Assembly: GCF_003439925.1 (NCBI RefSeq)
Contig: NZ_QQRR01000001.1
Span: forward strand, 372,001 to 436,000
From: Haloprofundus halophilus
GTDB lineage: Archaea; Halobacteriota; Halobacteria; Halobacteriales; Haloferacaceae
Reading direction: 5' to 3'
Length of the DNA stretch: 64,000 nucleotides
How positions within the stretch are numbered: position 1 is the first letter of the stretch; each line of letters starts with the position of its first letter. Under the pieces are notes generated by a model. It saw only the letters and a list, made by a program, of their open reading frames with translations, was not told where the DNA came from and made no database searches. Position numbers and translations under genes: made by a program. Below are positions 7,100-40,066 of the stretch, piece by piece.

Positions 7100-7230
7100 G
7101 GCGTGGTCGGCGTAGTCGGCGTGGTCGGTGTGGTCGGCGTAGTCGGCGTGGTCGGTGTGGTCGGCGTAGTCGGCGTGGTCGGTGTGGTCGGCGTGGTCGG
7201 CGCGGTCGGCGCAGTCGGTGTGGTCGGCGT
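7100..7230. repeat. Tandem array of 9-bp GGCGTGGTC-type units
   Basis: About fourteen copies of a 9-bp unit (ggcgtggtc, with a/g and c/t variants) run without interruption and show a higher-order 27-bp period. The array fills most of the 317-base gap 7017-7333. Read as protein it gives only (Val-Val-Gly)n or Thr-Asp-His-type repeats with no start context, so I treat it as non-coding. An inverted repeat GAGACG/CGTCTC near 7272-7286 lies just past the stop of the minus-strand aldehyde dehydrogenase and may aid termination. Confidence 0.9.
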
Positions 7231-7333
7231 GTCGAACGTACGGTGAGACCTCAGACCGGACGCACCGAGAGACGGGCCGTCTCGGACGGCGCTCGACTTC
7301 GCGTCTCCGCCTCCGGTCGTACCGTCTCCGTCG

Positions 7334-28791: not shown

Positions 28792-30102
28792 TCAGTCGTC
28801 GGCTTCGCTGACCCCCGGCACGGCCACGGACTCGCCCGTCGCCAACCGACGCACTGCCCGCGAGGCGACCAGCGCGATACCGATTTCAGTGAAGCCGACG
28901 ACGACGAACGCCTCGAAGTAACCGAGCAGTTCGGCCGACGACCCGCCGAGGAGAAACCCGGTCAGGAAGCCGAGGCTGCCGAAGATGTTGAACCCGCCCA
29001 TCGCCGCGCCTCGCTCGTCGGCGTCGGCGATGTCGGTGACGAGCGCCATCGTCGCCGGCGAGACCAGAGCACCGAAGACACCGACGAGCACCATCGCTCC
29101 CGCCGCGAGCGTCAGCGACGGCGACGCGCCGACGACGACGATGGAGACGCCGTACAGTATCGACCCGACGACGACCGGGAGGAAGCGTCCGATTCGGTCC
29201 GAGAGCACCCCCATCGGATACTGCAGGAGCGCGAACGGGCCGAAGAACATCGCGAGCACGAGTCCCGCCCCGAACGCGTCGAGGCCGAACACGTCGCGGA
29301 AGTAGTAGATGCCGACGAGCGAGAAAAATCCGGCCGTGAGGCGGTCGATGAAGCCGAAGGCGTACGGCACCCGCAGCGCCGGTCTGTCGACGACTTTCCG
29401 GAGAACCTTACGCGCCCCGGCGCGTTCGTCGGTGCCGTCGGGGCCGTTGGTGCCGAGGTCGTCGCGGCTGTTGGTGTCGGCGGCGGCGACGTCGCTCGCG
29501 CCGCTCCCGCTCCGTTCCGCGCCCGGCGAGCGGTCGGTCACCGTCGCCGTGAGGACCGCGACGAGGCCGAGTAACACCGCCGCGCCGTACACGGGCGCGA
29601 GCGGGTCGGCGGTCGAGAGTCGGCCGCCGACGACCGACCCGACGGCCGCGCCGAGGCCGATGGCGATGCCCGCCGCGCCCATGTTGCGGCCGTTGCCGCC
29701 GCCGAGGTCCATCAGCATCGTCATCGACAGCGAGAACGCGCCGATGGTGAACGCGCCCCCGACGACGCGAATCAGGAGGACGCCGCCGAAGCCGACGCCG
29801 AGCGAGGGGACGGCGCTCAAGAGGAGGTAGCAGGCGACGCCGCCGACTGCGCCGACGACGATGAGCGGGACGCGACGGCCGGTCGCGTCGCTGAGCGCGC
29901 CCCAGAGGCCGGCGAAGACGACGAACGCCGCGTACTCGGAGACGAGAAACCACATCCCCGCGTCGAGATCGCCGGCGCCGCCGAGCGCTCGCACGAGGTC
30001 GGAGACGCCCGGGTAGAGGAGCACCTGCGAGACCAACACCGCCCACACCGAGAGCGCGAGCGTGAGTCGTTCGCGTCGCGCCGAGTCGTTCATATCGGTC
30101 AT
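28792..30102 (-). CDS. MFS transporter
   Basis: The 436-residue protein has about 12 membrane helices in two halves joined by a polar, Asp/Gly-rich loop (about residues 190-235). The first half has the MFS motif A region GLWGALSDATGRRVP, and the second half repeats it as YPMGVLSDRIGRFLPVV. It resembles drug or metabolite exporters; the substrate is unknown. Its start is 49 bases downstream of the Tp34-like lipoprotein gene on the same strand, so it may be the last gene of that operon. Confidence 0.88.
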   Translation of the reverse strand: MTDMNDSARRERLTLALSVWAVLVSQVLLYPGVSDLVRALGGAGDLDAGMWFLVSEYAAFVVFAGLWGALSDATGRRVPLIVVGAVGGVACYLLLSAVPSLGVGFGGVLLIRVVGGAFTIGAFSLSMTMLMDLGGGNGRNMGAAGIAIGLGAAVGSVVGGRLSTADPLAPVYGAAVLLGLVAVLTATVTDRSPGAERSGSGASDVAAADTNSRDDLGTNGPDGTDERAGARKVLRKVVDRPALRVPYAFGFIDRLTAGFFSLVGIYYFRDVFGLDAFGAGLVLAMFFGPFALLQYPMGVLSDRIGRFLPVVVGSILYGVSIVVVGASPSLTLAAGAMVLVGVFGALVSPATMALVTDIADADERGAAMGGFNIFGSLGFLTGFLLGGSSAELLGYFEAFVVVGFTEIGIALVASRAVRRLATGESVAVPGVSEADD

Positions 30103-30151: not shown

Positions 30152-31195
30152 TCAGAACGTCATCGGCGGCATGTCGAGGAACGCCGTCTCGAAGCCCTCG
30201 TGACGCGCCGACTGCGGCGGCGTGTCGACGACGAGTTCGAGGTCGTCGTCCGCCGACAGCCCCTCGACGTTCGCGCCGTAGTGGAATCCGACTTCGGGGT
30301 CCAGCGCCGCTTCGAGCGCGACGTCCGTCCCGCCGACGGTCGCCGACAGCCCCATGCTCGGAATCACGAGCCCGTTTTGCGGCGTCCGCGGCGAGACGAG
30401 GAGGTAGGGACGGTCGCCGAAGCGACCGCCGGAGACGGCGCTGGCGGCGAAGACGGCGTCGCCGCTCGTCTGGGTACCGAACGACTCGCCCGGCAGCGCG
30501 TCGGGGGCGGGCGCTCTCCCGACGGGCATCGTCGCCCCGTTCGGCATCTCCATCTCCATCGCTTCGAGCGCGCCGGGGTTCCCCTGGCGGTCTTCGAGTA
30601 TCGTGTACGGGATGTCGTTTCGCTCGCGTTCGCTGTACTCGAACTCCAGTTCGACGCTGGCGGGTTCGCCGAACTTCCCCTCGAACTCGCCGAACCGGCG
30701 GATGTTCGTCCCGCCGACGTCGACGCGGACGGTGTAGCTGCCGTCGCCCGGCAGCGGCCAGTTGTCGCCGTAGTGAAAGCCCATCCGCTGTGAGAGCATC
30801 TCGTAGACGACCTCCTCCTCGCGGTTCCCGTCGCCGTCGGTCGTCTCGACGGTGACGCCGCTGCTGGGGATGGTGACGCCCGACTCGGCGTCCCAGACGC
30901 TCACCATCAGGTGAATCGCGTCGTTGCGCCCGACGTCGACGCGCTCGGTCTGTCGGCCCTGAACGGTCCAGAAGCGGTGCGGCCAACTGTACATCACGCC
31001 GACGGTGAGATCTCCTGCGTTCGCCATCCCGACCATCTCCATCCCCTCCTGGTGAGTGGGGATGTAGGAGGCGGACGGGCGGTTCTCGACGACCGGCGGT
31101 TCGCGGCTCGCCGTCGTCTCGAACAGGTCCGTACAACCCGCCAGCGAGCCCGCGAAGCCGACACCGACCGCGCCGAGGAGGGTCCGTCGTCTCAT
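30152..31195 (-). CDS. Tat lipoprotein of the Tp34/P19 iron-binding type
   Basis: The 347-residue protein starts with a twin-arginine lipoprotein signal (MRRRTLLGAVGVGFAGSLAGC; lipid Cys C21), so it is anchored on the outer face of the membrane. The first domain has Met/His clusters (HQEGMEMVGMANAGDL, H48/M52/M54/M57; WPHRFWTV, H73; DAIHLMV, H95/M98; MGFHYGDNWPLPG, H141) like the periplasmic Cu/Fe-binding P19/Tp34 family. A second half repeats a related pattern (EVGFHYGANV, H305). Binding of iron or copper is inferred from that family. Nearby genes encode a regulator, a small membrane protein and a DyP-fold Tat lipoprotein. Confidence 0.75.
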   Translation of the reverse strand: MRRRTLLGAVGVGFAGSLAGCTDLFETTASREPPVVENRPSASYIPTHQEGMEMVGMANAGDLTVGVMYSWPHRFWTVQGRQTERVDVGRNDAIHLMVSVWDAESGVTIPSSGVTVETTDGDGNREEEVVYEMLSQRMGFHYGDNWPLPGDGSYTVRVDVGGTNIRRFGEFEGKFGEPASVELEFEYSERERNDIPYTILEDRQGNPGALEAMEMEMPNGATMPVGRAPAPDALPGESFGTQTSGDAVFAASAVSGGRFGDRPYLLVSPRTPQNGLVIPSMGLSATVGGTDVALEAALDPEVGFHYGANVEGLSADDDLELVVDTPPQSARHEGFETAFLDMPPMTF

Positions 31196-31273
31196 GCGCG
31201 TGGCTAGGCGGGTGCGACGGTTACGGGTTCTGGTCCGCTTCTCGAAGCGGGTCCCCGAGTCGGCGGTCCCGCC

Positions 31274-31786
31274 TCAGGGTTCGAGTAGCCCGTCGACGAG
31301 TCGCGTGAATCGGTCGACGAACCGTTCGGGGAGCGACGGCGACACCGACGCGAGCAGGCGGGCGGTCGCTTCGGGCCGCGCCAGCGCAAGCGTCACCCGG
31401 CCGCGACTGTCGTAACGTTTCTCGACGACCGACTGCTCTTCGAGCCGTTTCGTGTGCCACGCGAGCGTGCTCCTGGCGATGCCGACTTCGTCGGCGACCT
31501 CGGCCGGGGTGGCTTCGTCGCGTTCGAGCAGCACGCCGAGCACGTCGCGGGCCGTCTCACGTCGCACCAGCGCCAGCACGCCGCGTTCCCACTCGTCGAA
31601 CGTCGACGGGTAGTAGTGGGTCTTGCCGTACAGGTGCGTCTCCGCGACCCGTTCGTCGCGGCCGAGTCGTCGAAGGTGGTACTGCACCTGACCGGGCGCG
31701 AGGTCGAGCGCCCGGACGAGTTCGTTGAAGTGGACGCCGGGGTTGTGGTGGACGTGCGCCGCGATACGGCTGCGCGTCGCGCTCAC
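31274..31786 (-). CDS. Tandem winged-helix transcription regulator
   Basis: The 170-residue protein contains two winged helices. The first (about 5-55) reads RSRIAAHVHHNPGVHFNELVRALDLAPGQVQYHLRRL. The second (about 75-135) reads VLGVLLERDEATPAEVADEVGIARSTLAWHTKRLEEQSVVEKRY. This is the usual haloarchaeal double-wHTH design. Its GTG start overlaps the TAG stop of the upstream membrane-protein gene by one base (TAGTG), so both are surely on one transcript and may be translationally coupled. It probably controls the lipoprotein and DyP-like genes beside it; direct evidence is lacking. Confidence 0.85.
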   Translation of the reverse strand: MSATRSRIAAHVHHNPGVHFNELVRALDLAPGQVQYHLRRLGRDERVAETHLYGKTHYYPSTFDEWERGVLALVRRETARDVLGVLLERDEATPAEVADEVGIARSTLAWHTKRLEEQSVVEKRYDSRGRVTLALARPEATARLLASVSPSLPERFVDRFTRLVDGLLEP

Positions 31787-32118
31787 TATCGCTCACCCGT
31801 CGGTGACGCCCGCTCGATACTGCGTGCGTAGTACACCGCCGCGATGACGAGCGCGACCATCACGAAGTCCAGTGCGTGTTCGATGGCGTGGTGGGAGGGA
31901 AACGGGATGACGCCGCCGATAGTGAGGACGGCGACGCCGCTTCGGGCCAGAAGCGCCGCGAGTGCTAACACGACGAGCGTGTGCGACCGCGACTGCCGAC
32001 GTAACAGCGCGATGAGTCCGACGGCGACGATGAGCGTCGAACTGAACCCCGCCAGCACGACGGCGGCCACCTCCGGGGCGCTCATCGTCGGCGCGGCGTG
32101 TGCTGAGAACGTGTGCAT
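31786..32118 (-). CDS. Small His-containing membrane protein coupled to the regulator
   Basis: The 110-residue protein has three hydrophobic helices: AAVVLAGFSSTLIVAVGLIALL, TLVVLALAALLARSGVAVL, and FVMVALVIAAVYYARS. HHAIEHALD lies just before the third, giving three His near the membrane surface. The family is unknown to me beyond haloarchaeal membrane proteins. It is the first gene of the minus-strand operon, followed by the regulator with a one-base overlap. It could serve as a membrane partner or sensor input for the metal/heme module; that is inference from position and His residues. Confidence 0.72.
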   Translation of the reverse strand: MHTFSAHAAPTMSAPEVAAVVLAGFSSTLIVAVGLIALLRRQSRSHTLVVLALAALLARSGVAVLTIGGVIPFPSHHAIEHALDFVMVALVIAAVYYARSIERASPTGER

Positions 32119-32259
32119 CTCTATCTGGTCGGGGTTACGCCTCGACGGTTATGGCTTGATTGGTGTGGTTCTCGAAAGCGAACGCTCTCGCTTCGGTGCT
32201 GTGGACGGTTCGACGGCCACACCAGAACCCCTATCCGCGAAACGGGCATAGAAACGACG

Positions 32260-33555
32260 ATGAGTCCGGGGACCGACGAGTGGAGTCGAAGAGACGTGCT
32301 GAAAGCCGCCGTCGCCGTCGGCGGCGCGGGCGCGCTCTCGGCCTGTCTCGACCTGGCCGACGAACCCGTCCCGGAGGGCACCTCCGACCTTTCGACGCTG
32401 CCGGAGCGGCAGCACGCCTGGAACGACTTGCTCGCGCGCGACGGCGCGGAGAACGTCGAACTCCCGCGTCACCAGACGTTTCTGTATCTGACGCTCGACC
32501 GCGACGGGACGCCGACGACCGCCGACCGCCGCGCAGTCGAGAACGCGTTGACGACGCTGGACCGCGCCTACGAGCGGAGCAACGAGGGACTGATTCACTC
32601 GCTGGCGTTCTCCCCGGCGTACTTCTCGCGCTTCGACGACCCGCTTCCGGAGAACGTCGACCTGCCGGAGCCACGGGCGCTATCGCCGTTCGAAACCCCC
32701 GCGTTCGACCGACAGGACGCCCTCTTACATCTGGTCAGCGACCGCGCCGACGCGCTGCTGGAAGCCGAGGAGGCGCTGACCGGCGAGCGAGACACCGTCA
32801 ACGGGGTGACGATGGAGACGCCGCTGTCGGCCGCGTTCTCCGTCGACTCCCGGCGGACGGGGTTCATCGGGAAGGGCATGCCCGCCGAGCGACAGGACGT
32901 GGGCGGCGTCCCCGACGGTAAACCGGTGCCCGAGGAGTCGCCGCTGTTCATGGGATTCAAGGCCGGATTCGCCGGGAACCAGGCGACCGAGGAGTACGTC
33001 ACCATCCCCGACGGCCCGTTCGCGGGCGCGACGACGAAACACGTCTCGAAGCTCCGTCAGCGCCTCGACGACTGGTACGTCGAGCAGGAGTTCGACGACC
33101 GAGTGGCCGAGATGTTCAGCCCCGAGCACGCCGCCGAGGGACTCGTCGAGGGCGTCGGCGACAACCTCGGCGACAGCAGCGGCGTCACGCCCGAGATAGT
33201 CGACCGCATCCGCGAGCACGCCCAGCAGTACGGCCGGGTCGGCCACGCCCAAAAGGCCGCCCGCGCCAACCGCGACGAGGAGGGGAACGTCCGCCTCCTC
33301 CGGCGGCACGTCGAGTCGACCGACGACGACGAGGCGAGCCTCCACTTCCCGGTGCTGCAGCGGCGCATCACCGACTTCGAGGAGGTGAGACGGGCGATGA
33401 ACGGGACCGACCTCACCGACGAACCGGCCATCCGACAGCGGGTGAACAACGGGATTTTGGAGTACATCTTCGTGGAGAATCGCGGGAACTTCCTCGTCCC
33501 GCCGCGTCGCCTGCGCGCGCTGCCGACGCCGACCGGCGAGGTTCCGGGGCTGTAA
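32260..33555 (+). CDS. DyP-fold Tat lipoprotein (EfeB/deferrochelatase-like, altered active site)
   Basis: The 431-residue protein has a Tat lipoprotein signal (SRRDVLKAAVAVGGAGALSAC, lipid C29). Its C-terminal half follows the dye-decolorising peroxidase pattern: MGFKAGFAGN (232-240), GRVGHAQKAARAN with the proximal heme His candidate H329, NVRLLRRH (R348/R349), LHFPVLQRRITDFEEV and GNFLVPPRR. The family GxxDG motif reads GFKAG here, so the distal catalytic Asp is Ala (A235). It may bind heme without normal peroxidase chemistry. ATG 32260 gives a proper Tat signal; the upstream frame does not. Divergent (141 bases) from the membrane protein/regulator operon, paralleling EfeO-EfeB pairings. 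Confidence 0.75.
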   Translation: MSPGTDEWSRRDVLKAAVAVGGAGALSACLDLADEPVPEGTSDLSTLPERQHAWNDLLARDGAENVELPRHQTFLYLTLDRDGTPTTADRRAVENALTTLDRAYERSNEGLIHSLAFSPAYFSRFDDPLPENVDLPEPRALSPFETPAFDRQDALLHLVSDRADALLEAEEALTGERDTVNGVTMETPLSAAFSVDSRRTGFIGKGMPAERQDVGGVPDGKPVPEESPLFMGFKAGFAGNQATEEYVTIPDGPFAGATTKHVSKLRQRLDDWYVEQEFDDRVAEMFSPEHAAEGLVEGVGDNLGDSSGVTPEIVDRIREHAQQYGRVGHAQKAARANRDEEGNVRLLRRHVESTDDDEASLHFPVLQRRITDFEEVRRAMNGTDLTDEPAIRQRVNNGILEYIFVENRGNFLVPPRRLRALPTPTGEVPGL

Positions 33556-33564
33556 CGGGGCAGC

Positions 33565-33678
33565 TCAGACCGCGACCGGCCGCGAGATGACCCAGAGCGA
33601 TAACACCGCGTACCCGACCATCAGCGTCGAAAGCGGCGTGTGGGAGACGACCGCCGCGCTGCGTCGAGCGCGGAACAC
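33565..33678 (-). CDS. Single-helix membrane microprotein
   Basis: A 37-codon frame from GTG 33678 encodes a basic N-terminus (VFRARRSAAVV) and one membrane helix (SHTPLSTLMVGYAVLSLWVIS). It is tail-to-tail with the DyP-like gene, ending 9 bases from its stop. An A+T-rich ATATCTACC lies about 20 bases upstream. The pattern resembles one-helix membrane proteins common in haloarchaea; ATG further in is possible. Confidence 0.4.
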   Translation of the reverse strand: MFRARRSAAVVSHTPLSTLMVGYAVLSLWVISRPVAV

Positions 33679-33738: not shown

Positions 33739-34104
33739 ATGCCCACCGTACAGTTCCGCGGACGCGACATCGACTGCGAGGAGGGTGAGGTGCTGCGCGA
33801 CGTGTTGCTGGCGGCCGGACTGTCGCCGCACAACGGGCGCGCACAGCAGTTGAACTGTCGCGGTCACGCAACGTGTGGAACGTGCGCCGTCGAGGTGGAA
33901 GGCGGCGTGAGCGAGATGGAGAAGCGGGAACGGCGTCGGCTCTCGCTCCCGCCGCACAGCCTCGACTCGGGGCTTCGACTCTCCTGTCAGACCCGCGTCG
34001 AAGGCGACGTGCGGGTGACGAAACACGAGGGGTTCTGGGGTCAGCACGTCGACGGTGAACGCGTCGTCTCGGAGGAGCACGACGACGCGGCTAACCGCGT
34101 CTGA
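33739..34104 (+). CDS. 2Fe-2S ferredoxin
   Basis: The 121-residue protein has an adrenodoxin-type [2Fe-2S] binding pattern Cx5Cx2C (NCRGHATCGTC) and the fourth Cys in LRLSCQTRVEGD. It carries electrons in the cytoplasm. An acidic C-terminal tail (ERVVSEEHDDAANRV) follows the fold. ATG 33739 (MPTVQFRGRDIDCEEGE) is the natural start. It is convergent with the 3-hydroxyacyl-CoA dehydrogenase gene. Its redox partner is not evident. Confidence 0.9.
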   Translation: MPTVQFRGRDIDCEEGEVLRDVLLAAGLSPHNGRAQQLNCRGHATCGTCAVEVEGGVSEMEKRERRRLSLPPHSLDSGLRLSCQTRVEGDVRVTKHEGFWGQHVDGERVVSEEHDDAANRV

Positions 34105-37795: not shown

Positions 37796-40006
37796 ATGAG
37801 TGAGACCCGTCCGTCGCGCGTGCTCTGCGTCGACGACGACGCGAGCCTTCGCGCGTTGACGACGGCGCACCTCGAACGACAGGGGCTCTCGGTCGTCACC
37901 GCCCCGGACGGGCCGTCCGCGCTTGACACGCTCGCCGAAGCGGAGTTCGACGGAATCGTCAGCGACTTCGAGATGCCGGAGATGGACGGTCTCGAACTGC
38001 TCGAGGCGGTGCGAGCGCGATACGACGCGCTGCCGTTCGTCCTCTTCACCGCGAGAGGCAGCGAGGACCTGGCGAGCAGGGCGATTTCGGCCGGCGTCAC
38101 CGACTACATCAGAAAGAACGGCGGGGCCGACCAGTTCGAGTTGCTCGCCAACCGCGCGGCCAACTACGTCTCGCAGTACCGCGCCGAGCGGGCGCTCGAC
38201 CGGAGCGAGGAGCGATACCGACGACTCGTCGAGACGTCGCCGTCGCCGATCGGCATCTACACCGAGGACGGCCGCCTCGCGTACGTCAACGAAGCGGCGG
38301 TCGGCTACTTCGGCGCCGAGGACACGGACGACCTCGTCGGGCGGTCGATATTCGAACTGGTCGACGACTCGGACTTCGACCTGGCTCGACGACGAAGCCG
38401 GCGCGTCTTCGAAGAACGCGCGGTGGCCGCACCGACCGAGCTCCACCTCCGCGGCCTCGACGGACGACCGCTACACGCCGTGTTGGCGACCGCGCCGATC
38501 ACGTTCGAGGGTGCCGACGCCGCTCAGATAGTCCTGAACGACGTCACGGAGTTCAAGCGGACGCAGCGGGCGTTCGAGCGCGAAAAGCAGTTCACCGAAG
38601 CCGCGCTGGACGCCCTCGACGACGTGTTCTTCGTGGTGGACACCGACGGCCGCCTCACCCGCTGGAACGGGCAGTTGAACGAGGTGACCGGCTACGACGA
38701 CGCCGAACTCGAAGGGATGCCGGCGAGCGCTTTTTTCCCGGCCGACGACGCCTGCGTAGAGCAGTCCGTCGAGGCGCTGTTCGTGGACGGGACCGTGACG
38801 TTCGACGGCGAATTGCTGACGAAGTCGGGCGAACTCGTCCCGTTCGAGGTGCGCGCGGTTCGCATGACCGACGAAGCGGATGGCCTCATCGGTGCCTGCG
38901 GCATCGCCCGCGACGTGACCGAGCGACGCGCACGCGAGAAGGAACTCGAACAGTATCGCACGGTCGTCGAGACGATTCCGGACGCGACGTACGTGTTAGA
39001 CGCCGATGGTTACATCCAGATGGTAAACGACGCTCACACCGAGGGGACCGGCGACTCGCTGAACGACCCCGTCGGCGTGCACGTCAGCCAGTACCTGAGC
39101 GAGGAGGGAATCGCCCGCGGTCGACGGGTGATAGAGTCGTTGCTCGCCGACGAGAGCCGGTTCTCGGGGCGCTTCGAGTTCGAAATCGAGAACGCCGACG
39201 GAGAGCGACGCCGATACGAGGACCACATCTCGGTGCTCACCGACGAAGACGGACGGTTCGACGGCTCCGTCGGCATCGTCCGCGACATCACGGAACGCAT
39301 CGAGCGCGAGCGAGCGCTCAGCAGACAGAACGAACGGCTCGACAAGTTCGCGAGCGTCGTCAGCCACGACCTCCGGAACCCGCTGAGCGTCGTCGACGGC
39401 TATCTCGAACTCGCTCGGGAGACGGGCGAAGAGGACCACTTCGACGCGATGGAACGCGCCGTCGACCGGATGGAGAACCTCGTAGACGGCTTGCTGTCGC
39501 TGGCGCGCAACGGCCGAGTCGTCGACGAACGCGAATCGGTCGAGTTGCGAAGCGCCGCCGAACGCGCCTGGGGGTACGTTCCGACGAACGGGGCGACGCT
39601 CATAGTCGACGGCAGCCACACCGTCGACGCCGACGAAGCTAGACTGCGCGAACTGTTCGAGAACCTCTTTCGGAACTCGGTCGAACACGGCTCGCCGCGC
39701 GGTCGGGCGAAAGCTGACGACGCGGACGGCGGCTCCGCGGGCAGCCGAGCGGAGTCCAACGGCGAGCGCGACGGGACGGTGACCGTCCGCGTCGGTGCGT
39801 CCTCGGACGGTTTCTACGTCGCCGACGACGGTCCGGGCATCCCCGAAGACGAACGCGACGCGGTGTTGGAGTACGGCTACTCGACGAACGAGTCGGGTAC
39901 GGGTTTCGGTCTCACCATCGTCGCCGAGATAGCCGAGGCTCACGGGTGGGAGGTCACCGTCTCCGAGAGCGACAGCGGCGGTGCGCGGTTCGACTTCCGC
40001 ACCTGA
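37796..40006 (+). CDS. Hybrid sensor kinase: receiver-PAS3-HisKA-HATPase
   Basis: The 736-residue soluble protein starts with a receiver domain (about 7-122; acidic pocket DDD at 13-15, phospho-acceptor D57 in VSDFEMPEMDG, K107 in DYIRKNGG). Three PAS domains follow (about 138-253, 264-378 and 386-503, each ending in a DVTE or DITE motif). A HisKA domain has the phospho-acceptor H524 in VVSHDLRNPL, and an HATPase domain (about 610-735) has LFRNSVEH and ADDGPGIPED. There is no membrane segment, so it senses cytoplasmic cues. The N-terminal receiver suggests it is itself controlled by another kinase. Confidence 0.93.
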   Translation: MSETRPSRVLCVDDDASLRALTTAHLERQGLSVVTAPDGPSALDTLAEAEFDGIVSDFEMPEMDGLELLEAVRARYDALPFVLFTARGSEDLASRAISAGVTDYIRKNGGADQFELLANRAANYVSQYRAERALDRSEERYRRLVETSPSPIGIYTEDGRLAYVNEAAVGYFGAEDTDDLVGRSIFELVDDSDFDLARRRSRRVFEERAVAAPTELHLRGLDGRPLHAVLATAPITFEGADAAQIVLNDVTEFKRTQRAFEREKQFTEAALDALDDVFFVVDTDGRLTRWNGQLNEVTGYDDAELEGMPASAFFPADDACVEQSVEALFVDGTVTFDGELLTKSGELVPFEVRAVRMTDEADGLIGACGIARDVTERRAREKELEQYRTVVETIPDATYVLDADGYIQMVNDAHTEGTGDSLNDPVGVHVSQYLSEEGIARGRRVIESLLADESRFSGRFEFEIENADGERRRYEDHISVLTDEDGRFDGSVGIVRDITERIERERALSRQNERLDKFASVVSHDLRNPLSVVDGYLELARETGEEDHFDAMERAVDRMENLVDGLLSLARNGRVVDERESVELRSAAERAWGYVPTNGATLIVDGSHTVDADEARLRELFENLFRNSVEHGSPRGRAKADDADGGSAGSRAESNGERDGTVTVRVGASSDGFYVADDGPGIPEDERDAVLEYGYSTNESGTGFGLTIVAEIAEAHGWEVTVSESDSGGARFDFRT

Positions 40007-40066
40007 GCCGTTGTCTTCGCGCCTGTACCGCCGTCTCCGTACCTGAACCGCCGTCTCCGTACCTGA
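40005..40066. repeat. Degenerate 21-bp tandem repeat at the 3' end of the hybrid kinase gene
   Basis: Two identical 20-base stretches ACCGCCGTCTCCGTACCTGA lie at 40026-40045 and 40047-40066. Two more diverged units precede them, the first overlapping the gene's own stop codon context (CACCTGAGCCG). The unit is 21 bp, and several units repeat an in-frame TGA. The remaining spacer to the next gene (40067-40160) holds its promoter region. Confidence 0.75.

Follow-up and report, generated by a model that had tools for sequence, protein, structure and literature searches.

A four-gene module of Haloprofundus halophilus that most likely handles copper on the outer face of the cell

The window analysed here is a 64,000-nucleotide stretch of the haloarchaeon Haloprofundus halophilus (contig NZ_QQRR01000001.1, positions 372,001 to 436,000), and our subject is a module of four genes within it, encoding two surface lipoproteins, a regulator and a small membrane protein. 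On the minus strand lie the genes of a DUF7350 twin-arginine translocation (Tat) lipoprotein with an N-terminal Iron_transport domain (30152..31195), of a double winged-helix regulator of the HVO_0163 type (31274..31786) and of a DUF7471 membrane protein (31786..32118); on the plus strand lies that of a DUF7405 Tat lipoprotein with the fold of the dye-decolourising peroxidases (DyPs; 32260..33555). These identities rest on Pfam throughout, together with a structural model and conservation for DUF7350, coupling to DUF7471 for the regulator, conservation for DUF7471, and a model, residue counts and the His register for DUF7405. The DUF7471 stop codon overlaps the start of the helix-turn-helix (HTH) regulator at 31786, as TAGTG, and 141 bases (32119-32259) separate the divergent DUF7471 and DUF7405 genes. 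An earlier sequence-only reading of this DNA had described the same layout, and its four open reading frames, overlap and gap are all where it had placed them. Both lipoproteins begin with a twin-arginine and a lipobox Cys, which are invariant in alignments of 44 (DUF7405) and 45 (DUF7350) relatives, and the named relative nearest to this genome at the locus, with 74% in DUF7350, is Haloprofundus marisrubri.

The DUF7350 lipoprotein matches Pfam DUF7350 in its C-terminal part (PF24041, 5e-46) and Iron_transport in its N-terminal part (PF10634, 26.7 bits against a cut-off of 21). In its AlphaFold model (predicted local distance difference test score, pLDDT, 88; alignment of 45 relatives), residues 50-194 adopt the P19/Tp34 fold, with FetP, P19, FtrA, Tp34 and HftA at Z 12.7-14.2 and a best match of Z 14.2 over 134 residues at 2.4 A, which bears out the earlier description of a Tat lipoprotein of the Tp34/P19 type. 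A single-sequence phmmer search of the Protein Data Bank (PDB) returned FtrA, below threshold. The two halves of the protein align with each other in hhalign (E 3e-7; reversed control 0.003), and in many such proteins the DUF7350 profile matches both halves, although for the window protein this match is weak (E 4.8e-4). The lipoprotein therefore consists of two fused P19/FetP/Tp34-type domains, a type that binds copper, the second a copy of the same kind, and since the solved P19 relatives are single-domain proteins the double domain is a natural fusion. The candidate metal ligands are the conserved His and Met residues H73, H95, M97, M133, M138, H141, H305 and H332; invariant in the 45 relatives are H73, H95, M97, M133, M138, H141 and H332. 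CrdA, a copper-binding copper resistance determinant, is a further structural match of the P19-type domain (Z 9.8). The 'iron transport' label of PF10634 would probably mislead for these proteins, and the copper reading given below would correct it.

The second lipoprotein matches Pfam DUF7405 (PF24152, 2.6e-168), and its AlphaFold model (pLDDT 90; alignment of 44 relatives) superimposes on DyPs at Z 25.6-27 over about 290-309 residues, with the EfeB structures 3o72 and 2y4e among the matches. Judged by this model, DUF7405 is a two-domain ferredoxin-like DyP fold. The earlier assignment of a DyP-type lipoprotein thus holds for the modelled fold, but the window protein has no Dyp_perox match in Pfam or NCBIfam; several other DUF7405 proteins exceed the cut-off of Dyp_perox_C (PF20628). 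Single-sequence phmmer against the PDB gave chance matches only, and hhalign against the single sequence of E. coli EfeB did not reach significance (E 0.14), with the conserved blocks nearly in register. H329, at the position of the proximal heme ligand, is invariant (44/44), as is H362, and by hmmsearch H329 stands in register with the His of a solved DyP in a sub-significant match (E 0.25). Arg occupies the presumed distal Arg position (R266, set by hand from its spacing to a conserved Trp) in 31 of the 44 proteins. The GxxDG motif of DyPs reads GFK[A/S]GF in this family (GFKAG in the window protein), and position 235, where the catalytic Asp would stand, is Ala in 21 sequences (A235 in the window), Ser in 21, Thr in one and Gly in one, and Asp in none (0/44). 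The distal Asp of DyPs is held to deprotonate H2O2 (PMC7611857, PMC8463360); because it is lost here, we rejected the reading as an ordinary active DyP, and ordinary peroxidase chemistry appears unlikely for DUF7405. As a naturally occurring family of DyP-fold proteins devoid of the peroxidase Asp, DUF7405 lends itself to asking what this fold does beyond peroxidase chemistry. The same genome holds a second, divergent DUF7405 paralogue, 40% identical (L132; G000:C2:380080-381072). In the haloarchaeal genomes G135, G050, G054, G082 and G087, a few proteins that match Dyp_perox_C are encoded outside the listed DUF7405 loci and may be true DyPs.

The regulator matches HTH_HVO_0163_N (PF24266, 6e-35) and HTH_24 (3e-15), in agreement with its earlier assignment to the winged-helix regulators, and the small membrane protein matches DUF7471 (PF24283, 2.7e-27) and has three transmembrane (TM) segments. 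The three His residues that had been noticed in it, H76, H77 and H81, are invariant in 82/82 relatives, as are D84 and R41. The resulting HHxxxHxxD sits at the end of TM2, and the positive-inside rule predicts that its His/Asp group lies outside the membrane. DUF7471 and the HTH gene are coupled on the same strand in 42 of the 90 loci that hold DUF7471. We consider DUF7471 a probable metal sensor paired with the HTH protein. A permease role is not favoured for a protein with three TM segments, coupling to an HTH gene and invariant extracytoplasmic His/Asp residues; these features suggest a sensor that acts with the regulator, not a stand-in for a permease.

Among 145 Halobacteria genomes, DUF7405 is present in 128, DUF7350 in 124 and DUF7471 in 121, and the genetic model Haloferax volcanii carries all three families; DUF7350 was not found in the sampled genomes of the phylum outside Halobacteria. 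At least 71 genomes have DUF7405 and DUF7350 no more than 6 kb apart, and in at least 38 the distance between DUF7471 and DUF7405 is no more than 8 kb. The metal lipoprotein, the DyP-fold lipoprotein, the regulator and the His-bearing membrane protein are conserved together in haloarchaea, which supports the sequence-only reading on this point. At a distance of up to 5 kb, SCO1 accompanies DUF7350 in 19 instances where 0.4 would be expected (19 genomes, 7 genera) and DUF7471 in 21 instances where 0.45 would be expected (20 genomes), and in Halorubrum-type genomes without DUF7350 the link to SCO1 is kept by DUF7471. The FecCD iron/cobalamin permease family, taken as a control, was found once near DUF7350 (0.54 expected) and never near DUF7471 (0.41 expected). 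Besides SCO1, the recurrent neighbours are COX15-CtaA, COX3, DsbD_2, TlpA, DsbA, heavy-metal P1B ATPases (in 8/79 neighbourhoods), NosD and NosL, together with a pyrroloquinoline quinone (PQQ)-type propeller, DUF7282, a major facilitator superfamily (MFS) transporter and a multi-TM protein of about 450 residues.

These data bear directly on the proposal, made in the sequence-only reading, of an EfeUOB or FTR1-P19 iron system in reduced form. In such a reduced or alternative iron uptake system, the P19-type lipoprotein would bind ferrous iron with the aid of a copper site, the DyP-fold protein would oxidise it, and the MFS protein or another membrane protein would be the permease. Bacteria use P19/FetP and EfeB in iron uptake (PMC10783030, PMC3577903), both folds are matched here, and an MFS gene follows DUF7350. 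With the FetMP and FTR1-P19 systems (Campylobacter, E. coli F11, Brucella FtrA) the module shares a P19 fold that bears His/Met and, at some loci, thioredoxin-like neighbours; with EfeUOB it shares a Tat-exported protein of the DyP fold (there EfeB) next to a second metal protein of the surface. However, FTR1 was found in 0/145 Halobacteria genomes, with bacterial controls positive, so that the FTR1-like permease is indeed absent, as had been claimed, and with it EfeU. Linkage to FecCD is lacking, the haloarchaeal P19-type protein has two fused domains, the catalytic Asp of the DyP-fold protein is lost, and the linkage is to SCO1, NosD and NosL, with which a promoter motif is also shared, and not to iron genes. 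EfeO was not seen at the locus, and no EfeO or FtrB/FtrD-like partner was recognised among the recurrent neighbours, for which no dedicated profile search was made. Both the neighbours and the shared motif belong to the maturation of copper enzymes (SCO1, NosD/NosL, CtaA, thioredoxins, P1B ATPase). We therefore rejected iron uptake as the principal explanation and regard it as distinctly improbable; of the 'iron, copper or heme' system first suggested, the copper or heme option is supported and the iron option is not.

The promoter motif reads TTCGA-N4-CRCACCA and stands about 35 base pairs (bp) before start codons. In its strict form, counted as TTCGA-N4-C[AGT]CACCA, it occurs at exactly 2 sites in the window against 0.05 expected. 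With a position weight matrix (PWM; score threshold 18.4), whose training set included the window's DUF7405 site and excluded its DUF7350 site, the best three of the 128,000 positions in the window precede exactly the three transcription units of the module. The best-scoring site, TTCGACGGCCACACCA (32209..32224, plus strand), lies 35 bp from the DUF7405 start; the second, TTCGAGAAGCGGACCA (31231..31246, minus strand), lies 35 bp from the DUF7350 start and is one mismatch from the consensus; the third, TTCGAGAACCACACCA (32161..32176, minus strand), lies 42 bp from the start of the DUF7471-HTH unit. The DUF7405 site is inverted relative to the DUF7471-HTH site, and an inverted repeat in the divergent promoter is conserved in the sister species. 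These three motif copies, the fused P19-type repeat and the missing DyP Asp all go beyond the earlier reading. The next-best scores in the window, below threshold, are at 7213-7238 (minus strand, 15.7) and 39987-40012 (plus strand, 15.0), and may be sites or chance. Scans for sigma-70 promoters and terminators gave nothing useful, the promoter model not being applicable to archaea.

In relatives, the strict motif precedes DUF7405 in 23/111 cases, SCO1 in 14/28, NosL in 2/8 and NosD in 1/8, compared with 5/3472 control open reading frames, and nearly always stands 34-36 bp 5' of the start. Fisher tests, uncorrected for genome relatedness, give 1e-31 for DUF7405 and 1e-27 for SCO1, and outside the window's genus the counts are 18/106 and 14/28. 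With the PWM at fixed spacing, sites precede 66/146 DUF7350, 48/111 DUF7405, 19/28 SCO1 and 5/8 NosD genes and 9/3302 controls. Several of these nine control proteins (L128, L237, L035, L171, L106) look, by eye from their N-termini, like secreted His-rich, lipoprotein or cupredoxin-type proteins. Such motif-bearing secreted proteins are likely further members of the regulon. A haloarchaeal denitrification motif, CGAAYATDKTYG, is likewise a promoter motif tied to nos genes (PMC10062603, PMC11218638), but it is not the same motif, since its sequence differs and it stands 66-79 bp from the nirK, nor and nosZ starts.

The distribution of the motif also bears on two further explanations. According to the first, the module would serve copper resistance and not delivery, being induced by excess copper and sequestering or oxidising copper outside the cell, as the P1B ATPase genes of some neighbourhoods and the resemblance to CrdA might suggest. 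The motif, however, precedes P1B ATPases in 0/13 cases, yet it precedes the delivery factors SCO1, NosD and NosL, and we consider this explanation unlikely. According to the second, DUF7405 would bind heme at the surface and deliver it for oxidase assembly, DUF7350 would assist in redox reactions only, and the copper linkage would reflect the heme-copper oxidase as target. The DyP fold with its invariant proximal His fits this proposal, as do the neighbours COX3 and CtaA, the latter a heme A synthase. The CtaA linkage is weak, though (2 of the best 49 near DUF7350), the motif is found before CtaA in 0/7 cases, and a Met/His-rich P19-type protein and the linkage to SCO1 and Nos genes favour copper; we give heme delivery only a slim chance.

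Motif sites were found in 30/59 genomes with DUF7471 and in 0/11 without it (p 0.0016, uncorrected for relatedness). Because the sites track DUF7471 in this way, we see the DUF7471-HTH pair as the foremost candidate to read the motif. It is conceivable, at somewhat less than even odds, that this sensor reads copper outside the membrane and, coupled to the HVO_0163-type HTH, controls a double-P19 copper chaperone (DUF7350), a DyP-fold heme protein no longer engaged in peroxidase chemistry (DUF7405), SCO1 and the Nos maturation factors with the motif as operator, as a haloarchaea-wide regulon for extracytoplasmic copper. Such a regulon is apparently undescribed: our literature search found no mention of DUF7405, DUF7350 or DUF7471 and a single one of HVO_0163, in an acetylome study, and a survey of Haloferax mediterranei lists no annotated copper-type regulator (PMC9240420).

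Since the control motif is common to the module and to known copper-delivery genes of its relatives, the most probable role of the four genes is the handling of copper, and perhaps of heme, on behalf of respiratory enzymes. We propose, with a probability of about 0.7, that they form a copper-handling module on the outer cell face that serves to load or maintain copper enzymes, and not an iron importer. The enzymes served would be heme-copper oxidases, nitrous oxide reductase and cupredoxins. In the mechanism that we envisage, DUF7350 would bind copper outside the cell and hand it on toward these enzymes, both the metal and its direction of flow being inferred, and the module would hold extracellular copper in a usable redox state. 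DUF7405 would hold heme and act in electron transfer or copper redox, not as a normal H2O2 peroxidase. DUF7471 would sense metal outside the membrane and signal to the HTH protein, which would bind the motif and set the level of the whole gene set, and the adjacent MFS protein may move metal across the membrane.

The closest studied case is, by analogy, the sco-ecuC-SLI_4212-dtpA operon of Streptomyces lividans, which the haloarchaeal set would resemble in its working and not by descent of its parts. In Streptomyces one operon encodes the Tat-exported DyP DtpA together with SCO and the chaperone ECuC, and these bring the copper oxidase GlxA to maturity; copper rescues the phenotype (PMC4736821). 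Common to both sets would be a Tat-exported protein of the DyP fold, a copper chaperone outside the cytoplasm, SCO and a possible transporter, for copper delivery to secreted copper enzymes. In contrast to the Streptomyces operon, the haloarchaeal chaperone is a fused double domain of the P19/Tp34 fold, the Asp of GxxDG is missing from its DyP-fold partner, the module has its own regulator/sensor pair and DNA motif, and SCO1, although linked or co-regulated in relatives, shares the locus in only some of them and is missing from the window's genus.

Several points weigh against the copper proposal. No SCO1 match was found in the window's own genus, so that any copper relay there needs another acceptor. 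P19/FetP relatives of known function serve iron import (PMC10783030), and in P19 itself the copper sites function in iron transport. The loss of the DyP Asp makes a DtpA-like enzymatic role of DUF7405 appear uncertain. Binding of the HTH protein to the motif is suggested by co-occurrence only, and one genome without DUF7471 (G130) has a near-threshold site (17.7). Moreover, the linkage, Poisson and Fisher figures ignore genome relatedness. For copper-enzyme loading outside the archaeal membrane, and for copper sensing there, what is gained here is a candidate regulator/sensor pair, a DNA motif at a fixed position, a list of targets and two new surface proteins.

The MFS gene (28792..30102, minus strand; MFS_1, 5e-33) begins 49 bp 3' of the DUF7350 gene, and in 11 loci, the window included, an MFS gene directly follows DUF7350. 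Its product is a possible co-transcribed permease or transporter; the MFS is known to include copper importers such as CcoA. In the sister species, the multi-TM gene and a PQQ-type propeller gene directly follow DUF7405, and relative to these (L133, L113) the window lacks about 2.8 kb holding both genes. What remains is the 3' stub of the deleted multi-TM gene, 'TM10' (33568..33657, minus strand), 30 codons that are 83% identical (tblastn E 7e-10). G021 (L015) is also contiguous across the stretch lost in the window. The multi-TM protein (e.g. L133:4139-5563, plus strand) has no Pfam or NCBIfam match, is present in 99/145 Halobacteria genomes (E <= 1e-10) and is often encoded beside DUF7350/DUF7405 or a P1B ATPase; a distant homologue (36%) lies elsewhere in the window's genome (G000:C1:548096). 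Just past the deletion scar stands a 2Fe-2S ferredoxin-type gene (33739-34104, plus strand), and comparable genes lie near some relatives (cluster c46).

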